This document shows, one piece after another, positions 900-59,630 of a stretch of DNA of 64,000 nucleotides. Source of the stretch: Streptomyces sp. NBC_01754 (lineage in GTDB: Bacteria; Actinomycetota; Actinomycetes; Streptomycetales; Streptomycetaceae). The stretch is from NCBI RefSeq assembly GCF_035918015.1, contig NZ_CP109132.1, positions 3,348,001-3,412,000 on the forward strand, read 5' to 3'. A program made the translations under genes and the position numbers. Numbering within the stretch: the first letter of the stretch is position 1; each line of letters starts with the position of its first letter. The notes under the pieces are model-generated. The model was not told where the DNA came from. It made no database searches and was given only the letters and a program-made list of their open reading frames with translations.

Positions 900-3572
900 T
901 CACTCCTCCCCCGGGCGCTGTGCGTGCCGTCGCTCGTACCGCGCCCGGGCCGCCAGGAGGCCGACGGTGTACAGCCCCAGGACCGCGGCGAGCAGCGGGT
1001 AGTACATGAGTGGCAGCGTGGTCAGGCCGAGCGGCGGGCCGAGCGGTGACGGCGGCAGCAGCAGGCCGATGGCGGCCAGTGCGGTCGCGGCCCAGGCGAC
1101 CGGCCCAGGTCTGCGCCCCTCGGCGCTGCGGCGGCCGATGCGCAGGAGCAGCATCACCAGGGCCTGGGTGAGCAGGTTCTCGGTGAACCAGCCCGAGTGG
1201 AACGCCGCCTCGTCGTCACCCGTTCCCGGGCCGTACAGGGCCAGCGCGAGGACTCCGAAGGTGGCGAGGTCGGCCACGGCGTTGAGCATGCCGAACCCGG
1301 TGATGAACCGCAGGAGCTCGCGCGGACGCAGCACGGTCGGCCGGCGCAGCTCCGACGGGTGCGGGCGGTCGTGGACGAAGGCGAGCTGGGCGGCGTCGAA
1401 ACACAGGTTCTGCGCCAGCACCTGGGCCGGAAGCATCGGCAGGAACGGCAGCAGCAGGCCAGCGGAGAGCATCGCGATCACGTTTCCGAGGTTGGACGAG
1501 AGCGTGACGCGCAGATACGTGGCGATGTTGCCGCTCGCGTGCCGCCCCGCGTTGATCGCGTGGGCGATCGCGGTGAGGTCCTTCTCGGCAAGCACCACGT
1601 CGGCGCCCTCACGGGTCACGTCCGCGGCCCCGCGCGGGGCGATACCGACGTCGGCGCTGCTCAGGGCGGGCAGGTCGTTGACGCCGTCGCCGAGGAATCC
1701 CACGGTGTGCCCGGCCGTCCGTAGTGCCAGGGTGAGCCGGGCCTTGTGTTCGGGGGTGCAGCGGGCGAAGACCGTCGTACGGCGGGCCAGGTCGGGGAGT
1801 TCGGCGTCGCTGAGCCCGTCGATCCGGTCGGCGGTGAGCACCGCGCCGTCGGCCACGGGGATGCCGAGGTCGCGGCAGGCGCGGGCCGCGGTGCCCGGGT
1901 GGTCGCCGGTGAGGATCTTGACCGTGACGCCCTGCCCGGTGAGGACGGCCAGCGCGTCGGCGGCGGTGGGGGTGAGCGCGTCCCTCAGGGTGATCAGACC
2001 GTGGAAGGTGAGTCCGCGTTCGTCGGCCGCCGTGTAGGCACGGGTGCGTGCCCGGCGTTCCGCGGTGGCGACCGCCAGGACGCGTACGCCGCCCTCGGCC
2101 TGCGCGGCGGCGAGTCGGCGCAGCCGTTCGCGTTCGTCCTCGGCGAGGACACAACGGCCGAGCACCGCCTCGGTGTCCCCCTTGACCACCAGAGTGTGCC
2201 GGCCGAGGCGGCCGGGAGTGCGGACGACGGCGGTGGCGAGGCGGCGGAGCGGGTCGAAGGGGACGGCCGCCGCCCCGTCGTACGCCGTGAGGGCGTCCTC
2301 GTCGGCCGCGTCCAGGATCGCCTCGTCCAGGGCGTCCGGTACCGGAAGTTCCGCGAGTTGCAGGGTCCACCAGGCGTTGACGGCTGCCCAGTGCAGGACC
2401 TCGGGGTCGTCCTGGCCGTCCGCTCCGAGGGCGCGGTCGACGACCGGGCGGTCCTGGGTGAGGGTGCCGGTCTTGTCCAGGCACAGCACGTCCACGGCGC
2501 CGACGTCGTGGAGCGCCGGCAGCCGCTTGACGATCACCCCGTGCGTACGGGCCAGCAGCGAAGCGCCCCGGGCCAGGCAGGTGGTGACGAGTACCGGCAG
2601 CATCTCGGGCGTCAGCCCGACCGCCACCGCGACGGCGAACGGCAGTGTCTCCAGGCCCCGCCCGCGCAGCGCCGCGTTGGCCATCAGCACCAGGGGCGGG
2701 GTGAGCAGCATGAACCGGATCAGGGTCCACGAGATCCCGTGGACGGACCGGTCGAAGGCGCTCGCCTCCTTCGGGCCCGGGGCCCGGCCCTGAGCGGTGG
2801 CGAACCGGGTGCGCGCGCCGGTCGCGGTGACGACCGCGGAGGCGCTGCCGGACGCGACGCTGCTGCCCTGGAAGCAGAGCTGCGGCTGCTCGAACACCCC
2901 GCCGCCGGCCCTGCCGGGGACGTCGTCGGCGTACTTCACGACGGGAGCGGACTCCCCCGTCAGCGCGGCCTGGTGCACGGTGAGTCCGCTCGACCGCAGC
3001 AGCCGTACGTCCGCCGGGACCAGCTCGCCCGGGCCGAGGCGGACCACGTCCCCCGGTACCAGCTCGTCCACGGGTATCTCGCGGGCCGTGGCCGCCGCTT
3101 CCCCGTCCGCGCGCCGCAGCACGGTGGCGGTGGTGGCGACCAGTTCGCGCAGTCCGGCCATGGAACGGTCGGCACGGTGTTCCCCGGACGCACGCAGCAC
3201 GCAGCTCACCGCGACCAGCAGGAGGATGACCGAAGCGGCGCCCCAGGCGAGGACGAGGGCCGACACCAGCCCGAGGCACCCCAGCACGGCCGTGAAGGGG
3301 TCTCGCAGACTGCGTACGAACAACCGGGGCCAGGACACCGGGCGCCGCCCCGGGACCGTGTTCCCGCCCGAGCGGGCCAGCCGTTCCTCGGCCGCCGATT
3401 CCGTCAGGCCGCGCGGGCCGCTGTCCAGCCGGCGCAGCACCTCCAGGACGGTCGGCACGGCGGGATCCGGGCCGAAGTCCTCGGCCGCACCCCGGCCGCG
3501 CCCGTCTTCCGGTATGCCCGCGGGGGCGGGTGCCCCTGCGCCCCGGCCCGAAGCCGCGGTGGTCTCAGCCAC
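900..3572 (-). CDS. mgtA: Magnesium-transporting P-type ATPase (P3B, MgtA-like)
   Basis: The product has 890 residues, the usual size for MgtA/MgtB importers. It has the N-terminal cation-ATPase domain, paired membrane helices near 85-130, the TGES actuator motif, and the phosphorylation motif LDKTGTLT with the Asp near residue 366. The hinge region reads GDGVNDLPALSSADVGI, and about six C-terminal membrane helices follow. P-type ATPases of this class drive Mg2+ influx with ATP. The GTG start overlaps the last 8 bases of the upstream arsR-like gene, so the two are co-transcribed and probably translationally coupled. An ArsR partner is unusual for Mg2+ import, so Ni2+/Co2+ or another divalent ion should stay open as substrate. 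Confidence 0.9.
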   Translation of the reverse strand: MAETTAASGRGAGAPAPAGIPEDGRGRGAAEDFGPDPAVPTVLEVLRRLDSGPRGLTESAAEERLARSGGNTVPGRRPVSWPRLFVRSLRDPFTAVLGCLGLVSALVLAWGAASVILLLVAVSCVLRASGEHRADRSMAGLRELVATTATVLRRADGEAAATAREIPVDELVPGDVVRLGPGELVPADVRLLRSSGLTVHQAALTGESAPVVKYADDVPGRAGGGVFEQPQLCFQGSSVASGSASAVVTATGARTRFATAQGRAPGPKEASAFDRSVHGISWTLIRFMLLTPPLVLMANAALRGRGLETLPFAVAVAVGLTPEMLPVLVTTCLARGASLLARTHGVIVKRLPALHDVGAVDVLCLDKTGTLTQDRPVVDRALGADGQDDPEVLHWAAVNAWWTLQLAELPVPDALDEAILDAADEDALTAYDGAAAVPFDPLRRLATAVVRTPGRLGRHTLVVKGDTEAVLGRCVLAEDERERLRRLAAAQAEGGVRVLAVATAERRARTRAYTAADERGLTFHGLITLRDALTPTAADALAVLTGQGVTVKILTGDHPGTAARACRDLGIPVADGAVLTADRIDGLSDAELPDLARRTTVFARCTPEHKARLTLALRTAGHTVGFLGDGVNDLPALSSADVGIAPRGAADVTREGADVVLAEKDLTAIAHAINAGRHASGNIATYLRVTLSSNLGNVIAMLSAGLLLPFLPMLPAQVLAQNLCFDAAQLAFVHDRPHPSELRRPTVLRPRELLRFITGFGMLNAVADLATFGVLALALYGPGTGDDEAAFHSGWFTENLLTQALVMLLLRIGRRSAEGRRPGPVAWAATALAAIGLLLPPSPLGPPLGLTTLPLMYYPLLAAVLGLYTVGLLAARARYERRHAQRPGEE

Positions 3573-3927
3573 CGGTCCCGGGCAGCCTGGTCACCGCCGC
3601 GTGGGCCTGGTGGGAGCGCACGGTCAGCTGCCCGACCATCACCCGCACCACGGTCACGATGTCGGGGTCGTCGACGTAGTAGACCTGCCGCCGACCCTCA
3701 CGCCGGGAGCGTACGAGTCCGGCGAGCTTCAGCTTGGCGAGGTGCTGGCTGACCGCGGGCAGCGCGCCACCCACGCGGTCGGCGAGGTGCGTGACGTCGC
3801 TCTCGCCCTGCGACAGGGCCCACATGATGTGCAGCCGGGCCGACGAGGCCAGCAGTCCGAACGCGGCGGCCGCGTCCGCCAGGACCTCGGCGGACGGGTC
3901 CCCGAAGCCAGCGACGTTCTCCGGCAA
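3565..3927 (-). CDS. ArsR/SmtB-family winged-helix repressor
   Basis: This protein of about 120 residues carries the ArsR winged helix: LADAAAAFGLLASSARLHIMW, then DVTHLADRVGGALPAVSQHLAKLKLAGLV as recognition helices and REGRRQVYYVDD as the wing. I chose the TTG at 3927, which follows GGGAGAGG with a 6-base gap to GGAG; an in-frame GTG at 3954 (129 residues) is the alternative. The frame stays open to 4365, but that extension is low-complexity and not family-like. It ends inside the start of the P-type ATPase gene. ArsR proteins release DNA on binding metal or another effector, so this one most likely controls the ATPase. No classical CxC metal site is visible, so the effector is unclear. Confidence 0.85.
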   Translation of the reverse strand: MPENVAGFGDPSAEVLADAAAAFGLLASSARLHIMWALSQGESDVTHLADRVGGALPAVSQHLAKLKLAGLVRSRREGRRQVYYVDDPDIVTVVRVMVGQLTVRSHQAHAAVTRLPGTGG

Positions 3928-4286
3928 AGTCCTCTCCCGTCCCGCCCGCGTCACGGCTGTCGCCCGTGCGCCCACCCAGTGTAGGCGTCCGGGGCGGTCT
4001 CTTCCGCTGCCGGGACGGGAGGCGGTCCCCCGCTTCGCCGGGTGCACGGCTCGAGGGACGGGTGGCAGGGGTCCGGGCCGGCGGGGAGCTCTCCCGCCCG
4101 CCTTCGGCGGAGTCACCCGCACCCCCTCGCTCGCGGCCGGGCTCCGCCGGGTCGCGTCCTCGGACGGCCGGACGGCGCCGGCACGAGGACGACCGACGGC
4201 CGGACGCCCGGGACCCGCTGCCCGTCGGCGTCCGATCGGCGGGCCCGCCGATCGGACGGCGGGGCCCCGGTCATCGGTCCGAGGCC
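3928..4286. other. Intergenic region between terD and the arsR-like gene
   Basis: This stretch of about 360 bases has no convincing gene. Open frames here are low-complexity and have no family resemblance. It contains the arsR-mgtA promoter region, in which I cannot pick a clear -10/-35 pair, and near its left-strand end the perfect palindrome described separately. Confidence 0.6.
4229..4258. terminator. 30-bp perfect palindrome 3' of terD
   Basis: The sequence is self-complementary from 4229 to 4258, centred on GGGCCC, with arms reading CGTCCGATCGGCGGG. It starts 29 bases after the terD stop. As RNA it would form a strong hairpin without a U-tract, typical of Streptomyces terminators. Having almost no loop is unusual, so a protein-binding site is also possible. 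Confidence 0.55.
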
Positions 4287-4862
4287 TCAGACGTTGACCC
4301 CGAAGTCGGACGCGATGCCCGCCAGCCCGGACGCGTAGCCCTGGCCGACCGCGCGGAACTTCCACTCGGCGCCGTTGCGGTACAGCTCGCCGAAGACCAT
4401 CGCGGTCTCGGTCGAGGCGTCCTCGGACAGGTCGTAGCGGGCGATCTCGGTGCCGCCCGACTGGTTCACCACGCGGATGAAGGCGTTGCGCACCTGGCCG
4501 AAGCTCTGGCCGCGCGCCACGGCCTCGTGGATCGACACCGGGAAGACGATCCTGTCGACCTCGCCGGGTACGGCGGCCAGGTTCACCTTGATGGACTCGT
4601 CGTCGCCCTCGCCCTCACCGGTGAGGTTGTCACCGGTGTGCTCGACCGAACCGTCGGGGCTGGTGAGGTTGTTGTAGAAGACGAAGTACTGATCGGAGAC
4701 GACCTTGCCCGACGTGTTCAGCAGCAGCGCGGAGGCGTCGAGGTCGAAGTCGGCGCCGGTCGTGCTTCGCGCGTCCCACCCCAGGCCGATCAAGACGGCG
4801 GAGAGCCCCGGGGCCTCCTTGCTCAGCGAAACGTTGCCGCCCTTGGACAGGGAAACACCCAT
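4287..4862 (-). CDS. terD: TerD-family calcium-binding stress protein
   Basis: The product has 191 residues and starts [15 protein letters not shown], the standard TerD opening. Acidic Ca2+-binding stretches are visible: [11 protein letters not shown] near 38 and [12 protein letters not shown] near 84. The motif [20 protein letters not shown] is also characteristic. The ATG follows CGGAGAGATGAACC. TerD proteins form cytoplasmic, membrane-associated Ca2+-dependent complexes linked to tellurite, phage and oxidative-stress tolerance. In Streptomyces they occur in many copies and affect calcium homeostasis and differentiation. This copy is solitary, with no terB/terC or TerY/P genes beside it. 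Confidence 0.93.
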
Positions 4863-55718: not shown

Positions 55719-55762
55719 AGCGCCTGAACGACATGGAACGACGGGGGAATCGTTCAGGCGCT
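55719..55762 (-). terminator. Hairpin at the end of the 106-residue Rieske-like gene
   Basis: AGCGCCTGAACGA (55719-55731) pairs with TCGTTCAGGCGCT (55750-55762), loop 18 bases. One arm includes the stop codon of the - strand gene, so on that strand the stem forms at the very end of the message and is followed by CCCCC. Terminator or message-stabilising stem. Confidence 0.65.
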
Positions 55763-56074
55763 GCGGGGGGTGGCGGAAATAGCTTCTTGTGCGAACAGCT
55801 CGTGGTCACGCTGGTCGAGATTGACGAAGATCATGCCGTATCTGACGACACAGCGGACCGGCTGCGGAGCCCCCCGGGGCCGACGGAGGCACCGATAGGC
55901 GCGAATGTCGTCCTCCGCCTCCATCACGACGACGACCGGCTCCCCGAACAGGGTGACCATCAACGAATCGCCCTGGCGGGTCAGCGCCGTGAGCAGATCG
56001 ATGAAATGCCACCCTGACCGATAGGCCGTGGCCATCTCCCGGCGAAAGGTGCGGTCGTCCGGGGGGGTGGTCAT
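55754..56074 (-). CDS. 106-residue protein, possible Rieske-domain remnant, coupled to the DIGW-repeat gene
   Basis: The ATG overlaps the stop of the DIGW-repeat gene as ATGA, so the two are translated together. I see no signal peptide. The centre, SLMVTLFGEPVVVVMEAEDDIRAYRCLRRPRG, looks like the first strands of a Rieske domain. PVRCVVRYGMIFVNLDQRD resembles what follows the iron-sulfur loop in Rieske oxygenases. The ligand pairs CxH and CxxH are absent and the cluster-binding part seems deleted. The Rieske relation is a weak inference from pattern alone. A role as partner, chaperone or modifier of the repeat protein would fit the coupling. Confidence 0.65.
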   Translation of the reverse strand: MTTPPDDRTFRREMATAYRSGWHFIDLLTALTRQGDSLMVTLFGEPVVVVMEAEDDIRAYRCLRRPRGAPQPVRCVVRYGMIFVNLDQRDHELFAQEAISATPRSA

Positions 56075-56463
56075 GCGACCGTACCCGTCGGGGCGGACCA
56101 GCCGATCTCACCGGCGGACGCGGACCAGCCGATGTCGCCGGCGGACGCGGACCAGCCGATGTCGCCGGCGGGCGCGGACCAGCCGATGTCGTTCATGACG
56201 CCGGCCGGTGTGCTCCAGCCGATGTCGGCGGCCCGTACGCTCCAGCCGATGTCGGCGGCCTGTGTGCTCCAGCCGATGTCGGCAACCGGCGTGCTCCAGC
56301 CGATGTCAGCGGCCTGCGCGCTCCAGCCGATGTCGTTCGTGACGCCGGCCGGCGTGCCCCAGCCGATCTCGCCTCCGCTCAGCCCCAGCCCAAGAGCCGC
56401 GACGAACGAGGCGGCAAGCACCGAGCGAAGCATTCGCTTATACATAGTCGGCTTCGTCCTCAC
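56071..56463 (-). CDS. Secreted DIGW-repeat protein (putative peptide precursor)
   Basis: The product has 130 residues from GTG 56463, preceded by GGGAGAGG at about 9 bases. A basic n-region and hydrophobic stretch (MYKRMLRSVLAASFVAALGLGLS, about 7-29) form a signal peptide. The rest is ten copies of [DE]-I-G-W-[SG] plus four variable residues, period nine, with a three-residue insert (GVTN/GVMN) in two copies. Most units end in small residues (AQAA, TPVA, TQAA, VRAA, ASAG) before the next Asp. It is coupled to the Rieske-like gene and divergent from an HTH regulator. No family is recognised. A precursor of short Trp-containing peptides or a surface repeat protein are the two readings. Confidence 0.75.
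   Translation of the reverse strand: MRTKPTMYKRMLRSVLAASFVAALGLGLSGGEIGWGTPAGVTNDIGWSAQAADIGWSTPVADIGWSTQAADIGWSVRAADIGWSTPAGVMNDIGWSAPAGDIGWSASAGDIGWSASAGEIGWSAPTGTVA
56099..56370. repeat. 27-bp tandem repeats encoding DIGW units
   Basis: Ten copies of the + strand core CAGCCGAT(G/C)TC recur every 27 bases, or 36 where a 9-base insert is present. Third positions vary between copies while Ile-Gly-Trp is invariant, which points to selection on the peptide sequence. Confidence 0.92.
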
Positions 56464-56538: not shown

Positions 56539-56558
56539 GTTCCTGTATGTTCAGGAAC
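56539..56558. promoter_or_regulatory. Inverted-repeat operator candidate in the divergent DIGW/regulator promoter
   Basis: GTTCCTG (56539-56545) and CAGGAAC (56552-56558) are perfect inverted arms with a 6-base spacer. The site lies 16 bases before the regulator ATG and 76 bases from the DIGW start, and is a natural autoregulatory site for the adjacent HTH protein. Confidence 0.6.
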
Positions 56559-56573: not shown

Positions 56574-57557
56574 ATGACCAGAAGCAACACAAAGCCGACA
56601 CATCCTCACGGGATCGCCGAACTGTGCGAGGCCGGAGGGCTCCTTTACGCCAGCGCACTACGGCTAGGCCGTATCGCACGTACCGAAGTCGCCCAGGCCC
56701 CGTGCCTGATGGAGTTCGCGCTGCTGCACCCCGACCCGGACGACGAGCAGTGGCTCCGGCCTGTTCCGCCGTCCGCCGCGCTCGCCCAGCATCTCCACCC
56801 CATCGAGCGAGAGATCCAGGAGCACCGGAGGTATTCGGTCGCGCTGGCCGAACGCTTCGAGCCGTTCATGGACATCAGCGCCCAGGGCCCGCCGACCACC
56901 CACGCCATCACGGTGCTGGAGGGTGAGACCCGGATCAACGCCGCCCTCGACCTGGCCACGGCGGAGTGCCGCACCGAGGTCCTCACGGTCCAGCCGGGCG
57001 GCGGCAGGAGTGAGGACCGTCTGGGTAAATCGCTCGAACGCGGTCTGTCCGTGGTGCACCGGGGTGTGCGCATCCGCACCCTTTACCAGCACACCGTGCG
57101 CCACAGCCCCAGCACGCTCGCCTATGCCGAACGCATTGCCAGCAATCATGTCGAGATAAGGACGCTCGAAGAACTCATAGAACGACTCATCGTCTTCGAT
57201 CGCACGGTCGCTTTCATCCCTGCCCAGGACGACCGCCAAGTCGCCCTGGAACTCCGTCATCCGGGCCTCGTGGTGTATCTCGCCAAGGTGTTCGAGCAAC
57301 TCTGGACACGGGCCGAGCCGCTTCTCGAAGAAGTGAAGTACGCCCCGACCCCTCTGGGAATCAGCGGTGTCCAGCGGTCCATTGCCCAACTCCTCGTCGA
57401 GGGACATGTCGACGACTCCATCGCACGGCGCCTCGGCATGAACGTCCGCACCTGCCGGGCCCACGTGGCCAAGCTCGCCGCGGCGCTCGGCAGCAACAGC
57501 CGCGCCCAACTCGGCTACCTGATAGCCCGGTCGGGGATCCTGGACCAGGACTCCTGA
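56574..57557 (+). CDS. HTH regulator with N-terminal TrmB/PLD-like domain (paralogue 1)
   Basis: The product has 327 residues from ATG 56574, preceded by GGTGGAGAT. A central alpha/beta region (about 110-250) resembles the phospholipase-D-like part of TrmB-type regulators: ATAECRTEVLTVQPGG, GVRIRTLYQHTVRHSP, ELIERLIVFDRTVAFIPA. The C-terminal LuxR-like HTH reads GVQRSIAQLLVEGHVDDSIARRLGMNVRTCRAHVAKLAAALGSNSRAQLGYL. It is divergent from the DIGW-repeat operon, with an inverted repeat between. It is likely to control that operon; the ligand is unknown and could be the peptide. Confidence 0.82.
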   Translation: MTRSNTKPTHPHGIAELCEAGGLLYASALRLGRIARTEVAQAPCLMEFALLHPDPDDEQWLRPVPPSAALAQHLHPIEREIQEHRRYSVALAERFEPFMDISAQGPPTTHAITVLEGETRINAALDLATAECRTEVLTVQPGGGRSEDRLGKSLERGLSVVHRGVRIRTLYQHTVRHSPSTLAYAERIASNHVEIRTLEELIERLIVFDRTVAFIPAQDDRQVALELRHPGLVVYLAKVFEQLWTRAEPLLEEVKYAPTPLGISGVQRSIAQLLVEGHVDDSIARRLGMNVRTCRAHVAKLAAALGSNSRAQLGYLIARSGILDQDS

Positions 57558-57801
57558 CCCTCCGGCGGGAGGTACGCCCGTCCGGTAGGACCAGCCTCCC
57601 CCCACAGCTAGGCTTCCGCCACCTTCATCTTGTTGCAGTGCAGAAAGCGGGGGGTCCCAAATCGATACCGCCGAGGCAAACCCGACCCATTCGCACGGCA
57701 GCAGAGAGCTCTGCGGCCCGGCTGTCCGCCTCTACGAGGAGGCGCTGCGAGCAGGACGCATCCCCCGCGCCCGGCTGTCCGCCGCCCCGTGCCTGCTGGA
57801 C

Positions 57802-58677
57802 ATGGCCCTCGTCCATCCCGACCCCGCGGACGGCACCTGGGTGTGCCCTGTACCGCCGTCGGCCGCCCTGGCACACCTGCTCCAGCCCCTCACCCGCGAG
57901 ATAGGCGAGCGGATCCAGCTGACCGCCGCGCTCACCGAGGCGCTGGCGCCCCTGGCGGCGGTCGCCAACGAGGACCCCAATCTGGCCATCACCGTGCTCG
58001 AGGGGCGTCCGCTGATCACCTCGGCGCTCCGGGAGGCCTCCGCACGCGCCACCGAAGAGGTCCTGACCGCACAACCGGGTGGCAACCGCCTGGAGCACCA
58101 CATGCGGCAGGCCGTGGACAACGGCCGCGCGGCAATCTCCGGCGGAGCCCGCCTCCGGCACCTCTACCAGCACCCTGCGCGCTACAGCCCGCGGCTCAGG
58201 GAGTACCTGGCGCGGATGTCGGGCGACCACCTCCAGGTACGGACCGTCGAACAGACGGTCGACCGGCTCATCATCTTCGACCGCACCGTGGCCTACATCC
58301 CCGCCGCGCCCGGTGACGAGGTGGCCCTGGAGGTCCGTCACCCGGCGCTCGTCCGCTATCTGACCCAGGTCTACGAGGTCCTCTGGGCGCAGGCCACCCC
58401 GTACAGCGACCCGCTCCCCACCACCGCCCCCGGCACCCCTGTCACCGCCGTCCAGCAGAGCGTCGCGCGGCTCCTGGCCGAGGGCCACGTCGACGACGTG
58501 GTGGCCCGCAAGCTGGGCATCAGCATCCGTACCTGCCGCTCGCACATCTCCCGGCTGATGCAGACGCTCGGCGCCCACAGCCGCACCCACCTGGGAGTGC
58601 TCCTCGTGCAGTCGGGCATCGCCGAGCCCGACAGCACACGCGCCCCCAGGACGCCCCCTCCCCGCCCGCCTGCCTGA
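57802..58677 (+). CDS. HTH regulator, paralogue 2, with no identifiable start codon
   Basis: From the ATG at 57802 it has 291 residues and matches paralogue 1 through the whole PLD-like region and HTH (SVARLLAEGHVDDVVARKLGISIRTCRSHISRLMQTLGAHSRTHLG). The resemblance begins earlier, at ELCGPAVRLYEEALRAGRIPRARLSAAPCLLD (from about 57706), in the same frame. The open frame back to a stop at 57586 has no ATG, GTG or TTG. Either an unusual start is used (AUC at 57661 follows a G-run), or one base is missing from the six-G run at 57649-57654, which would join it to the GTG at 57638. The real protein is probably about 340 residues, or the gene is damaged at its 5' end. Confidence 0.75.
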   Translation: MALVHPDPADGTWVCPVPPSAALAHLLQPLTREIGERIQLTAALTEALAPLAAVANEDPNLAITVLEGRPLITSALREASARATEEVLTAQPGGNRLEHHMRQAVDNGRAAISGGARLRHLYQHPARYSPRLREYLARMSGDHLQVRTVEQTVDRLIIFDRTVAYIPAAPGDEVALEVRHPALVRYLTQVYEVLWAQATPYSDPLPTTAPGTPVTAVQQSVARLLAEGHVDDVVARKLGISIRTCRSHISRLMQTLGAHSRTHLGVLLVQSGIAEPDSTRAPRTPPPRPPA

Positions 58678-58797
58678 CGGGCGGCCCCCGCGGATCCGCC
58701 TCAGGCCCCGGAACCTCGTTCGTCATATGTCTCCCGCGCTCCCCGGCCCGTTTCCATGATGCAACGGCGCGAACATCCGATCGACTGGAATGAGACG

Positions 58798-59630
58798 TAT
58801 GAATGACAGTCGGAACGCCCTCGCCAACGATGACCTCCTCGTGTCCGTGGAAGCCGTGAGCCACGTGCACGACTGCGCTGGGACGTCCACGACGTCCTCG
58901 CCGTCCAGCTCTCGGGAGAGAAGGACTGGAAGGTACGGAACCCCCCACGTACCGCACCGCTGTCCCGCGATGCCCCGCCCCGGACGACACCCCGGCGAGG
59001 AGACCCTCCGGACCGGAACCATGAGCCGCGGCGACGTTCTGCACATCCCGCGCGGCTACTGGCACATGGCCGGCCGCGACGGTCGCGGTTCGGGACACAG
59101 TCTGCACATGACGCTCGGGTTCGCCACGAGGACGGGAGCGTGCTGGCTCTCCGAACCGCTGCCGTGAGGACGAGTTGTTCCGGCTCGACCTGGACTCCTC
59201 CGCCGACTCCGGGCAGCACCGGCGGCTCACCGAGGCAGCCCTCCGGCTGGTGAGCTCCCGAACCCCCGCGGACTTCCGGGCGGCGCGCGAGCACGACGTC
59301 GCCCCGGCCCGGCACGTACCCTTCCTGGAGACGTTCGGGGAGCCCGACGCCGTCGTATGCGTCTGCGAATTTTGCCCGCGGCTCAGCGACCTGGGAGAGA
59401 CGGTCGAGGTGCTCTCCTCGGGTAAGAAGCCCACGTTCAGAGCCAGGGCCCTGCCCGCCCTGCGCCTCCTGCTGAGCGGAGAGCCGGTGCCTCTGGACCG
59501 AGTGGCCGACGCCGTCGGGGACGAGGTGCGTCCACTGGCCGAGATCCTCATGGGCCACGGATGGTGCGCGCCCCTGACACCCGAACTGGCCTCGGGCCAC
59601 TCCGGTCTCGTGGCCGACGCCACCCCATGA
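58798..59630 (+). pseudogene. Frameshifted JmjC/cupin-type oxygenase
   Basis: Pieces of one cupin_4/JmjC-like protein are spread over three frames. LLVSVEAVSHVHD is followed in another frame by WDVHDVLAVQLSGEKDWKV (58879 on). The next piece, SRGDVLHIPRGYWHMA...SLHMTLGF, lies back in the first frame (about 59020-59130), and the C-terminal winged-helix part LFRLDLDSSADSG...LMGHGWCAPL is in the third (59174-59630). At least three frameshifts are needed, and the region before the iron site looks shortened; Arg precedes WDVHD where a His ligand is expected. Intact relatives are 2-oxoglutarate/Fe protein hydroxylases. Confidence 0.78.

Follow-up and report, generated by a model that had tools for sequence, protein, structure and literature searches.

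A candidate multi-copy short-pheromone precursor and its divergent TrmB-LuxR regulator, probably exchanged as a cassette among Streptomyces species

The locus described here lies between the heat-shock genes clpB and hspR of Streptomyces sp. NBC_01754, within a 64,000-nucleotide stretch of DNA to which we refer as the window. Its features are collected in Table 1. The first-pass annotation, made from the sequence letters, had described a secreted protein built of ten D/E-I-G-W repeats and suggested that it could be a multi-copy peptide precursor. The open reading frame is present and ten units can be counted in it, eight DIGW and two EIGW, with first residues spanning positions 32-119; in 20,000 shuffles of the precursor protein, [DE]IGW occurred on average 0.01 times and at most twice. 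The unit spacings are, in order, 12, 9, 9, 9, 9, 12, 9, 9, and 9, so that the nine-residue period described earlier holds in seven of the nine steps and gives way to 12 residues in the other two, and the residue that follows the first unit is G, not S. The precursor leader is basic and hydrophobic, with a conserved R-S-x-L core in an alignment of 12. We were able to locate the start region in 70 of 81 loci. In 11 of these 70, the GTG that had been taken as the gene start is out of frame with the ATG preceding the leader sequence K-R-M-L-R-S (17 nt apart rather than 18); GTG 56463 is therefore probably wrong as the gene start, and ATG 56445 is the more likely one.

Table 1. Features of the precursor-regulator locus in the window
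Feature	Position	Strand	Basis or remark
Precursor ORF	56071..56463	(-)	130 aa counted from GTG 56463; 124 aa from the likely ATG 56445
Sec-type leader MYKRMLRSVLAASFVAALGLGLSGG	56371..56445	(-)	Judged by eye
Repeat array (ten [DE]IGW, each 5 or 8 residues from the next)	56098..56370	(-)	Residue-level count
Partner gene, 106 aa, degenerate Rieske-type domain	55754..56074	(-)	Overlaps precursor end by 4 bp
Perfect palindrome GTTCCTG-N6-CAGGAAC, candidate operator	56539..56558	(.)	Between precursor and reg1
reg1, divergent regulator: TrmB-like PLD-fold sensor and C-terminal LuxR-type HTH	56574..57557	(+)	Weak Pfam, model, Foldseek/profile
reg2, second regulator, reg1 paralogue (46% identity)	57643..58677	(+)	Variable part of locus

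Divergent HTH regulators, which had also been reported, are indeed found in the window. The reg1 frame as called begins at 56547, but the ATG at 56574, behind GGTGGAG, is the more likely start. A Pfam scan of reg1 returned GerE, DUF7436, TbsP_N, and HTH_24 alone, all below the cut-off; the scan gave no match to Pfam TrmB, to TPR repeats, or to an autoinducer-binding domain of the kind found in AHL-type LuxR solos. DUF7436 had matches in three of the control genomes, none of them Streptomyces. The fold is PLD-like/TrmB, joined to a LuxR HTH. In the predicted model (mean pLDDT 84, pTM 0.58), the sensor resembles TrmBL2 (Foldseek E 1.4e-13 at a whole-chain TM-score of only 0.3-0.4; profile E 6e-8) as well as other PLD-fold proteins, as is characteristic of TrmB-family PLD-fold sensors. 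A possible N-terminal winged helix was read by eye off the secondary structure of the model.

Rieske clusters are bound through the motif CxH..CxxH. The partner gene product has CxR..CxxR at these positions and lacks a cysteine in five of 35 aligned sequences, while a C-terminal PRSA is invariant in all 35. Its fold is Rieske-like but weakly so (best Foldseek E 0.011, none below 0.001). Because the Rieske histidines are replaced and a cysteine is sometimes lost, the partner is unlikely to hold a cluster. On the other side of the locus, homology of reg2 begins near 57643 and the first ATG, GTG, or TTG in frame is at 57802 (window 57589-57802), so that either the start codon would be unusual or the gene truncated. 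A broken Fe/2OG oxygenase had been reported nearby, and there is a partial JmjC-type ORF at 58790-59167, followed at 59175-59630 by an ORF with a weak HTH_15 match; the two are possibly one disrupted oxygenase gene. Of the other loci, that of S. violaceoruber alone was checked for it, and it gave no match. A PPOX gene occurs in 76 of 81 loci, with no PPOX match at S. violaceoruber.

In a search of 40 relatives, 24 of them from the same genus, 13 other genomes gave matches, every one belonging to that genus. Twelve of these share the leader and carry other units (DVGW, DLGW, DSGW, DSTW, DSAWP, DSKWP, DSVWP, DTRWD, and others); the one match without the shared leader (L014) was set aside as spurious. 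One genome (G020) additionally holds a DAGWQ peptide (L015), whose leader differs. The partner gene was used for a wider search and matched in 257 of 295 Streptomyces genomes at E <= 1e-3, 243 of the matches being strong and the other 14, at E 1e-4 to 1e-18, weak and perhaps due to different Rieske proteins. From a partner scan of named genomes we took the best 80 of 383 loci, a choice that favours relatives of the window. In all 80 of these best-scoring loci, a precursor lies immediately upstream of the partner (identified by script in 79 and by reading in L075), the divergent regulator is present, and a small propeptide with an export-type leader thus stands beside a regulator gene; the family adjoins clpB. 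The cores of L075 were seen by reading, and this locus was excluded from the repeat statistics since its open frame is too long. We also looked for homologues with disrupted repeats and no conserved neighbourhood, and this was not the pattern seen. Copy number ranges from 1 to 11 among the 80 parsed precursors, with a single copy in 11 and two copies in 24. Ten of the 80 stop one residue beyond the core W, among them four of the 11 single-copy ones (DSRWD, DSVWD, DSTWD, and DTIWS).

The palindrome of the window, which is its only perfect copy in the 7.77-Mb genome, recurs within 1 mismatch in 63 of the best 80 of 383 loci and with at least 2 mismatches in the other 17, making it a natural candidate for autoregulation. 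At up to 2 mismatches it has 86 genomic places, equal to the control, and for this reason no regulon could be named from it.

It had been proposed that the unit of the array is a 9-mer starting DIGWS. When we compared the copies within genes (625 copy pairs from 69 genes with at least 2 copies), the two middle residues of [DE]xxW were nearly invariant, with amino acid identities of 99% at x1 and 97% at x2 (99.7 and 90.7% when weighted by gene), at codon identities of 83% and 57%, respectively; 93% of the differing codons were synonymous at x1 and likewise at x2. Identity of the acidic residue (96%) and of W (100%) within genes is imposed by the search pattern, from which copies without D/E or W escape, and only x1 and x2 therefore test selection. 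At the positions flanking the tetrapeptide, identity was 27-58% and the synonymous share of the codon differences 13-35%; the residue right after it was 58% identical between copies. The core was uniform in 59 of the 69 multi-copy genes, the 10 others including the window's own (eight D, two E). Between genes, x1 agreed in 25% of pairs and x2 in 17%; there are 24 majority cores among 80 genes, and the cores of different species include DIGW, DITW, EISW, DSTW, and EPTW. Since the core is uniform in most genes and the differences between copies are mostly synonymous, these comparisons indicate that selection preserves the tetrapeptide [DE]xxW and not a 9-mer. The codons differ while the core is held, suggesting that the copies are old enough for their DNA to have diverged with the peptide maintained.

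Core types are dispersed across the clpB tree, and close species carry DIGW, DITW, DIAW, and DLAW. We counted parsimony changes of core type for 75 of the 81 loci, six being dropped for a missing reg1 or PPOX gene. The core required 46 changes on the clpB tree, 46 on that of PPOX, 45 on that of the partner, and 23 on that of reg1, where the minimum is 21. None of 100 label shuffles brought the count below 53 on any of the trees, which shows that core type carries some phylogenetic signal on clpB too. Identity of the reg1 sensor was compared in 111 close pairs (clpB at least 93% identical). It ranged from 0.889 to 1.0 where the core was the same (29 pairs) and from 0.522 to 0.885 where it differed (82 pairs); the two ranges do not overlap, but they are separated narrowly, the nearest pairs being DIAW versus DIGW. 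When core labels were permuted within clpB clusters, the sensor and HTH differences were reached in 1, 0, and 0 of 2000 permutations at thresholds of 0.95, 0.93, and 0.92, compared with 288 of 2000 for the partner, 134 of 2000 for PPOX, and 527 of 2000 for clpB at 0.93. One locus (L033) was left out of the regulator comparisons; in this strain, Streptomyces globisporus 1912-4Crt, reg1 is split over two frames (3614-4652) and the single-copy DLAW precursor is open.

DNA identity profiles, from which L052 and the window were left out, place the limits of the variable segment. In 14 of 14 close different-core pairs, which share loci and are not 14 independent events, the drop in identity spans reg1 and the precursor (34-91% per 250-bp bin and 21-67%, respectively) and ends at the partner start (93-100%). 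The far side of reg1 is nearly identical again in eight of these pairs, and the flank was unalignable in the other six. Eight same-core control pairs gave 80-96% in reg1 and 69-87% in the precursor bin. Because identity falls across reg1 and the precursor and recovers at the partner start, the swapped unit is the regulator together with the precursor.

On the evidence of the trees, permutations, and profiles, we conclude that reg1 is co-inherited with the precursor core type. The two genes are adjacent, and part of the co-inheritance could therefore be linkage; yet the partner overlaps the repeats and does not follow core type, although adjacency alone should have carried it along. The tight coupling to a small partner gene that had been pointed out thus stands as a 4-bp overlap, but the co-inherited gene is the divergent regulator. 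We rejected the partner as the specificity determinant on its 45 core changes against 23 on reg1 and its 288 of 2000 permutations, and regard it as associated with the peptide locus but, by these comparisons, not co-inherited with peptide type. Since the LuxR HTH co-segregates with the core too, association alone does not single out the sensor. Fourteen of the 30 sensor/HTH positions that best separate the cores fall at residues 149-159 or 178-206, and the rest elsewhere, including residues 35, 87-89, 105, and 237-261.

The window's genome encodes two further members of the regulator family, more distantly related at 32 and 25% identity. At one of them (L105), the regulator (1501-2505, minus strand) is divergent from a leader-bearing peptide (2591-2989, plus strand) that ends ...PHDFGWQ and is followed by a SARP (BTAD) gene; at the other, no peptide is in view. 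We chose a paralogue set of 90 loci from 61 Streptomyces genomes among the matches listed (30 kept and 60 further), passing over four loci (two thought to be clpB-linked, one at a contig end, and one without a reason). A script found a leader-bearing ORF with a terminal or repeated [DE]xxW at 25 of the 90, or 24 of 89 without L180, which proved to be clpB-linked. The motifs were DFGWQ, DAGWQ, DLGWQ, DMGWQ, DMSWQ, DFVWP, DDQWG, DNNWP, DTGWD, and others. The 24 candidates probably include orthologues of one another, and of the two matches at L173 one is spurious; 17 of the 24 are divergent from the regulator. A [DE]xxW terminus was found in 20 of 199 non-regulator leader ORFs near paralogous regulators (L180 remains within the 199, its ORF not among the 20) versus 1 of 175 in 549 kb of background, and even this one background ORF lies next to, and divergent from, a further regulator paralogue. 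Control motifs gave, near regulators and in background, counts of 1 and 2 for [KR]xxW, 6 and 4 for [ST]xxW, 6 and 2 for [AG]xxW, 0 and 0 for [DE]xxF, 1 and 0 for [DE]xxY, 7 and 1 for [DE]xxL, 3 and 2 for [DE]xW, and 6 and 2 for [DE]xxxW; some are thus also commoner near regulators, but less so than [DE]xxW. S. violaceoruber likewise has a candidate peptide ending DDSQWG (L284, 1081-1269, minus strand) divergent from a LuxR-type regulator paralogue. In the class as a whole, 83 of 197 genomes encode members of the regulator family, which is represented in 32 of 90 genera. A survey of 67 loci, 57 of them outside Streptomyces, yielded convincing peptides at L214, L228, and L230, all in the same genus, and at one of the 57 outside it (L247, 966-1271, plus strand), which has a leader and DTSWGGY twice. 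Most script matches in this survey were regulator frames or spurious.

Read together from sequence, the repeat, the leader, the selection on the middle residues of the tetrapeptide, the co-inheritance with reg1, the conserved palindrome, and the paralogous pairs make a multi-copy peptide precursor the best-supported reading. We consider it probable that the precursor is a multi-copy source of a short pheromone, that a dedicated regulator senses this signal, and that the two genes are exchanged together as a pherotype cassette; secretion, cleavage, import, binding, and the regulatory outcome are what we infer. The exported precursor would carry ten copies of a short signal whose specificity would lie in [DE]-x-x-W, here DIGW, and would be cut extracellularly to short peptides. 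These would be re-imported, probably by an oligopeptide permease (the genome has 16 SBP_bac_5 open frames from 18 match rows, three in one frame), and would act as ligands of reg1, binding its PLD-fold sensor and so changing what this TrmB-LuxR regulator does at the palindrome and at other targets, including antibiotic genes. With the regulator, the peptide would form a cognate pherotype pair that may be swapped as one cassette between Streptomyces species.

Several features recall the RRNPPA/Phr systems of Bacillota, including a small propeptide with a Sec-type leader beside the receptor gene, a signal that is C-terminal or multi-copy, and, in RRNPPA, a receptor that is usually specific for its own peptide; the precursors stopping one residue after W resemble C-terminal Phr-type signals. 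A TPR domain is the hallmark of RRNPPA receptors, whereas the receptor here has a TrmB-like sensor and a LuxR HTH. The mature RRNPPA signal has 5-10 residues, C-terminal or repeated, while here conservation marks the four residues of [DE]xxW, in up to 11 copies and in Streptomyces. Because its receptor is without a TPR domain and of another family, the peptide-reg1 system follows RRNPP/Phr logic but is not a member. RRNPPA signals are described as C-terminal or in several copies (1-4) (PMC11343458). Archaeal TrmB and TrmBL2 share the sensor likeness, but reg1 adds a C-terminal LuxR HTH and adjoins a secreted peptide instead of having a sugar ligand. In agr and comQXPA, signal and receptor genes are exchanged as one specificity cassette among close relatives, much as proposed here, but the present pair has a one-component regulator as receptor in place of a histidine kinase, and no peptide modification is known for it. 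Another Streptomyces oligopeptide signal is Bld261/BldK of S. coelicolor, which is reported to be taken up by an ABC transporter, to affect development and antibiotics, and to be likely positively charged (PMC11303876). The DxxW peptides differ in being acidic, and we found no gene link to Bld261 here; a few peptide masses were computed for such a link, none of which is used as evidence.

The pheromone reading has to be weighed against others. The precursor could be sensed inside the producing cell, its repeats binding the regulator before export and reporting on secretion or envelope stress with no cell-to-cell signal. Cognate co-inheritance requires only binding, not export, and the neighbouring clpB and hspR are heat-shock genes, both of which suit such a sensor; however, release accounts better than titration does for the conserved hydrophobic leader and for the many copies, and the 10 precursors that end one residue past the core W look like cleavable C-terminal signals, leaving intracellular sensing unlikely. 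A structural cell-surface protein, with [DE]xxW as a packing or wall-binding repeat, had also been put forward and would account for tandem Trp repeats behind a secretion-type leader. We think this highly improbable, given precursors with only one or two copies and a core that varies between genes but is mostly uniform within them, a pattern that, like the tracking of the regulator, a structural role leaves unexplained.

Bacteriocin-immunity modules, too, typically come as species-specific pairs that are exchanged, and the peptides could accordingly be short secreted antimicrobials with the co-inherited gene as their regulator or immunity factor. That gene encodes a DNA-binding regulator with a ligand-type sensor domain rather than an immunity protein, and the conserved unit is merely four residues and acidic, which makes an antimicrobial role quite unlikely. 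Much the same low probability attaches to a RiPP precursor, with enzymatic modification of the core either ahead of cleavage or following it: D and W, being uniform, could mark the modified sites, and the partner has a Rieske-like fold, but this partner is without the Rieske histidines and, in some homologues, without a cysteine.

A possible link between the pheromone pair and antibiotic production comes from gene order. In S. violaceoruber (the genome taken as such), the order is clpB, partner, precursor, reg1, reg2, reg3, a periplasmic-binding protein, and hspR, with a precursor ending DTIWS, a 326-codon match to reg2, and a 394-aa reg3 frame. In S. coelicolor, we take clpB to be SCO3661 and hspR to be SCO3668. 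Judged by this gene order and by the sizes of SCO3665 and SCO3666, rather than by sequence, SCO3664 should be reg1. The listed lengths of these two LuxR regulators, SCO3665 and SCO3666, are 327 and 394 aa, respectively (PMC3282765). In a transposon study, insertions in SCO3664 are among the mutants with actinorhodin raised >50-fold, SCO3664 is listed as a downmodulator, and complementation restored 12 of 16 regulator mutants, a count for the group and not per gene (PMC6585502). We lean slightly towards the broader proposal that Streptomyces has several parallel pheromone channels, each comprising a TrmB-LuxR regulator and a secreted [DE]xxW precursor, and that the clpB-linked channel, present in most of the genus and exchanged as pherotype cassettes, controls antibiotics via the SCO3664 regulator.

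What is known of signalling in Streptomyces concerns mainly gamma-butyrolactone-type molecules. If confirmed, the proposed system would represent a new way in which antibiotic producers communicate by peptides and would add TrmB-LuxR as a receptor class to peptide quorum sensing. A pherotype-specific short peptide would then offer a cheap synthetic handle on antibiotic regulation, and it would become testable which genes encode the oligopeptide signals imported by BldK and similar permeases. Among the open-access papers listed, preprints not included, we found no published description of [DE]xxW precursors or their regulator pairs, and one may exist elsewhere; nor did we find a paper under the locus tags SVEN_3426-3429, SAV_4515, or SGR_3256, the last two of which were guessed. 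In public records, some of the precursors among P0144, P0155, P0210, P0227, and P0234 are labelled 5'-nucleotidase, a label that is almost certainly wrong.
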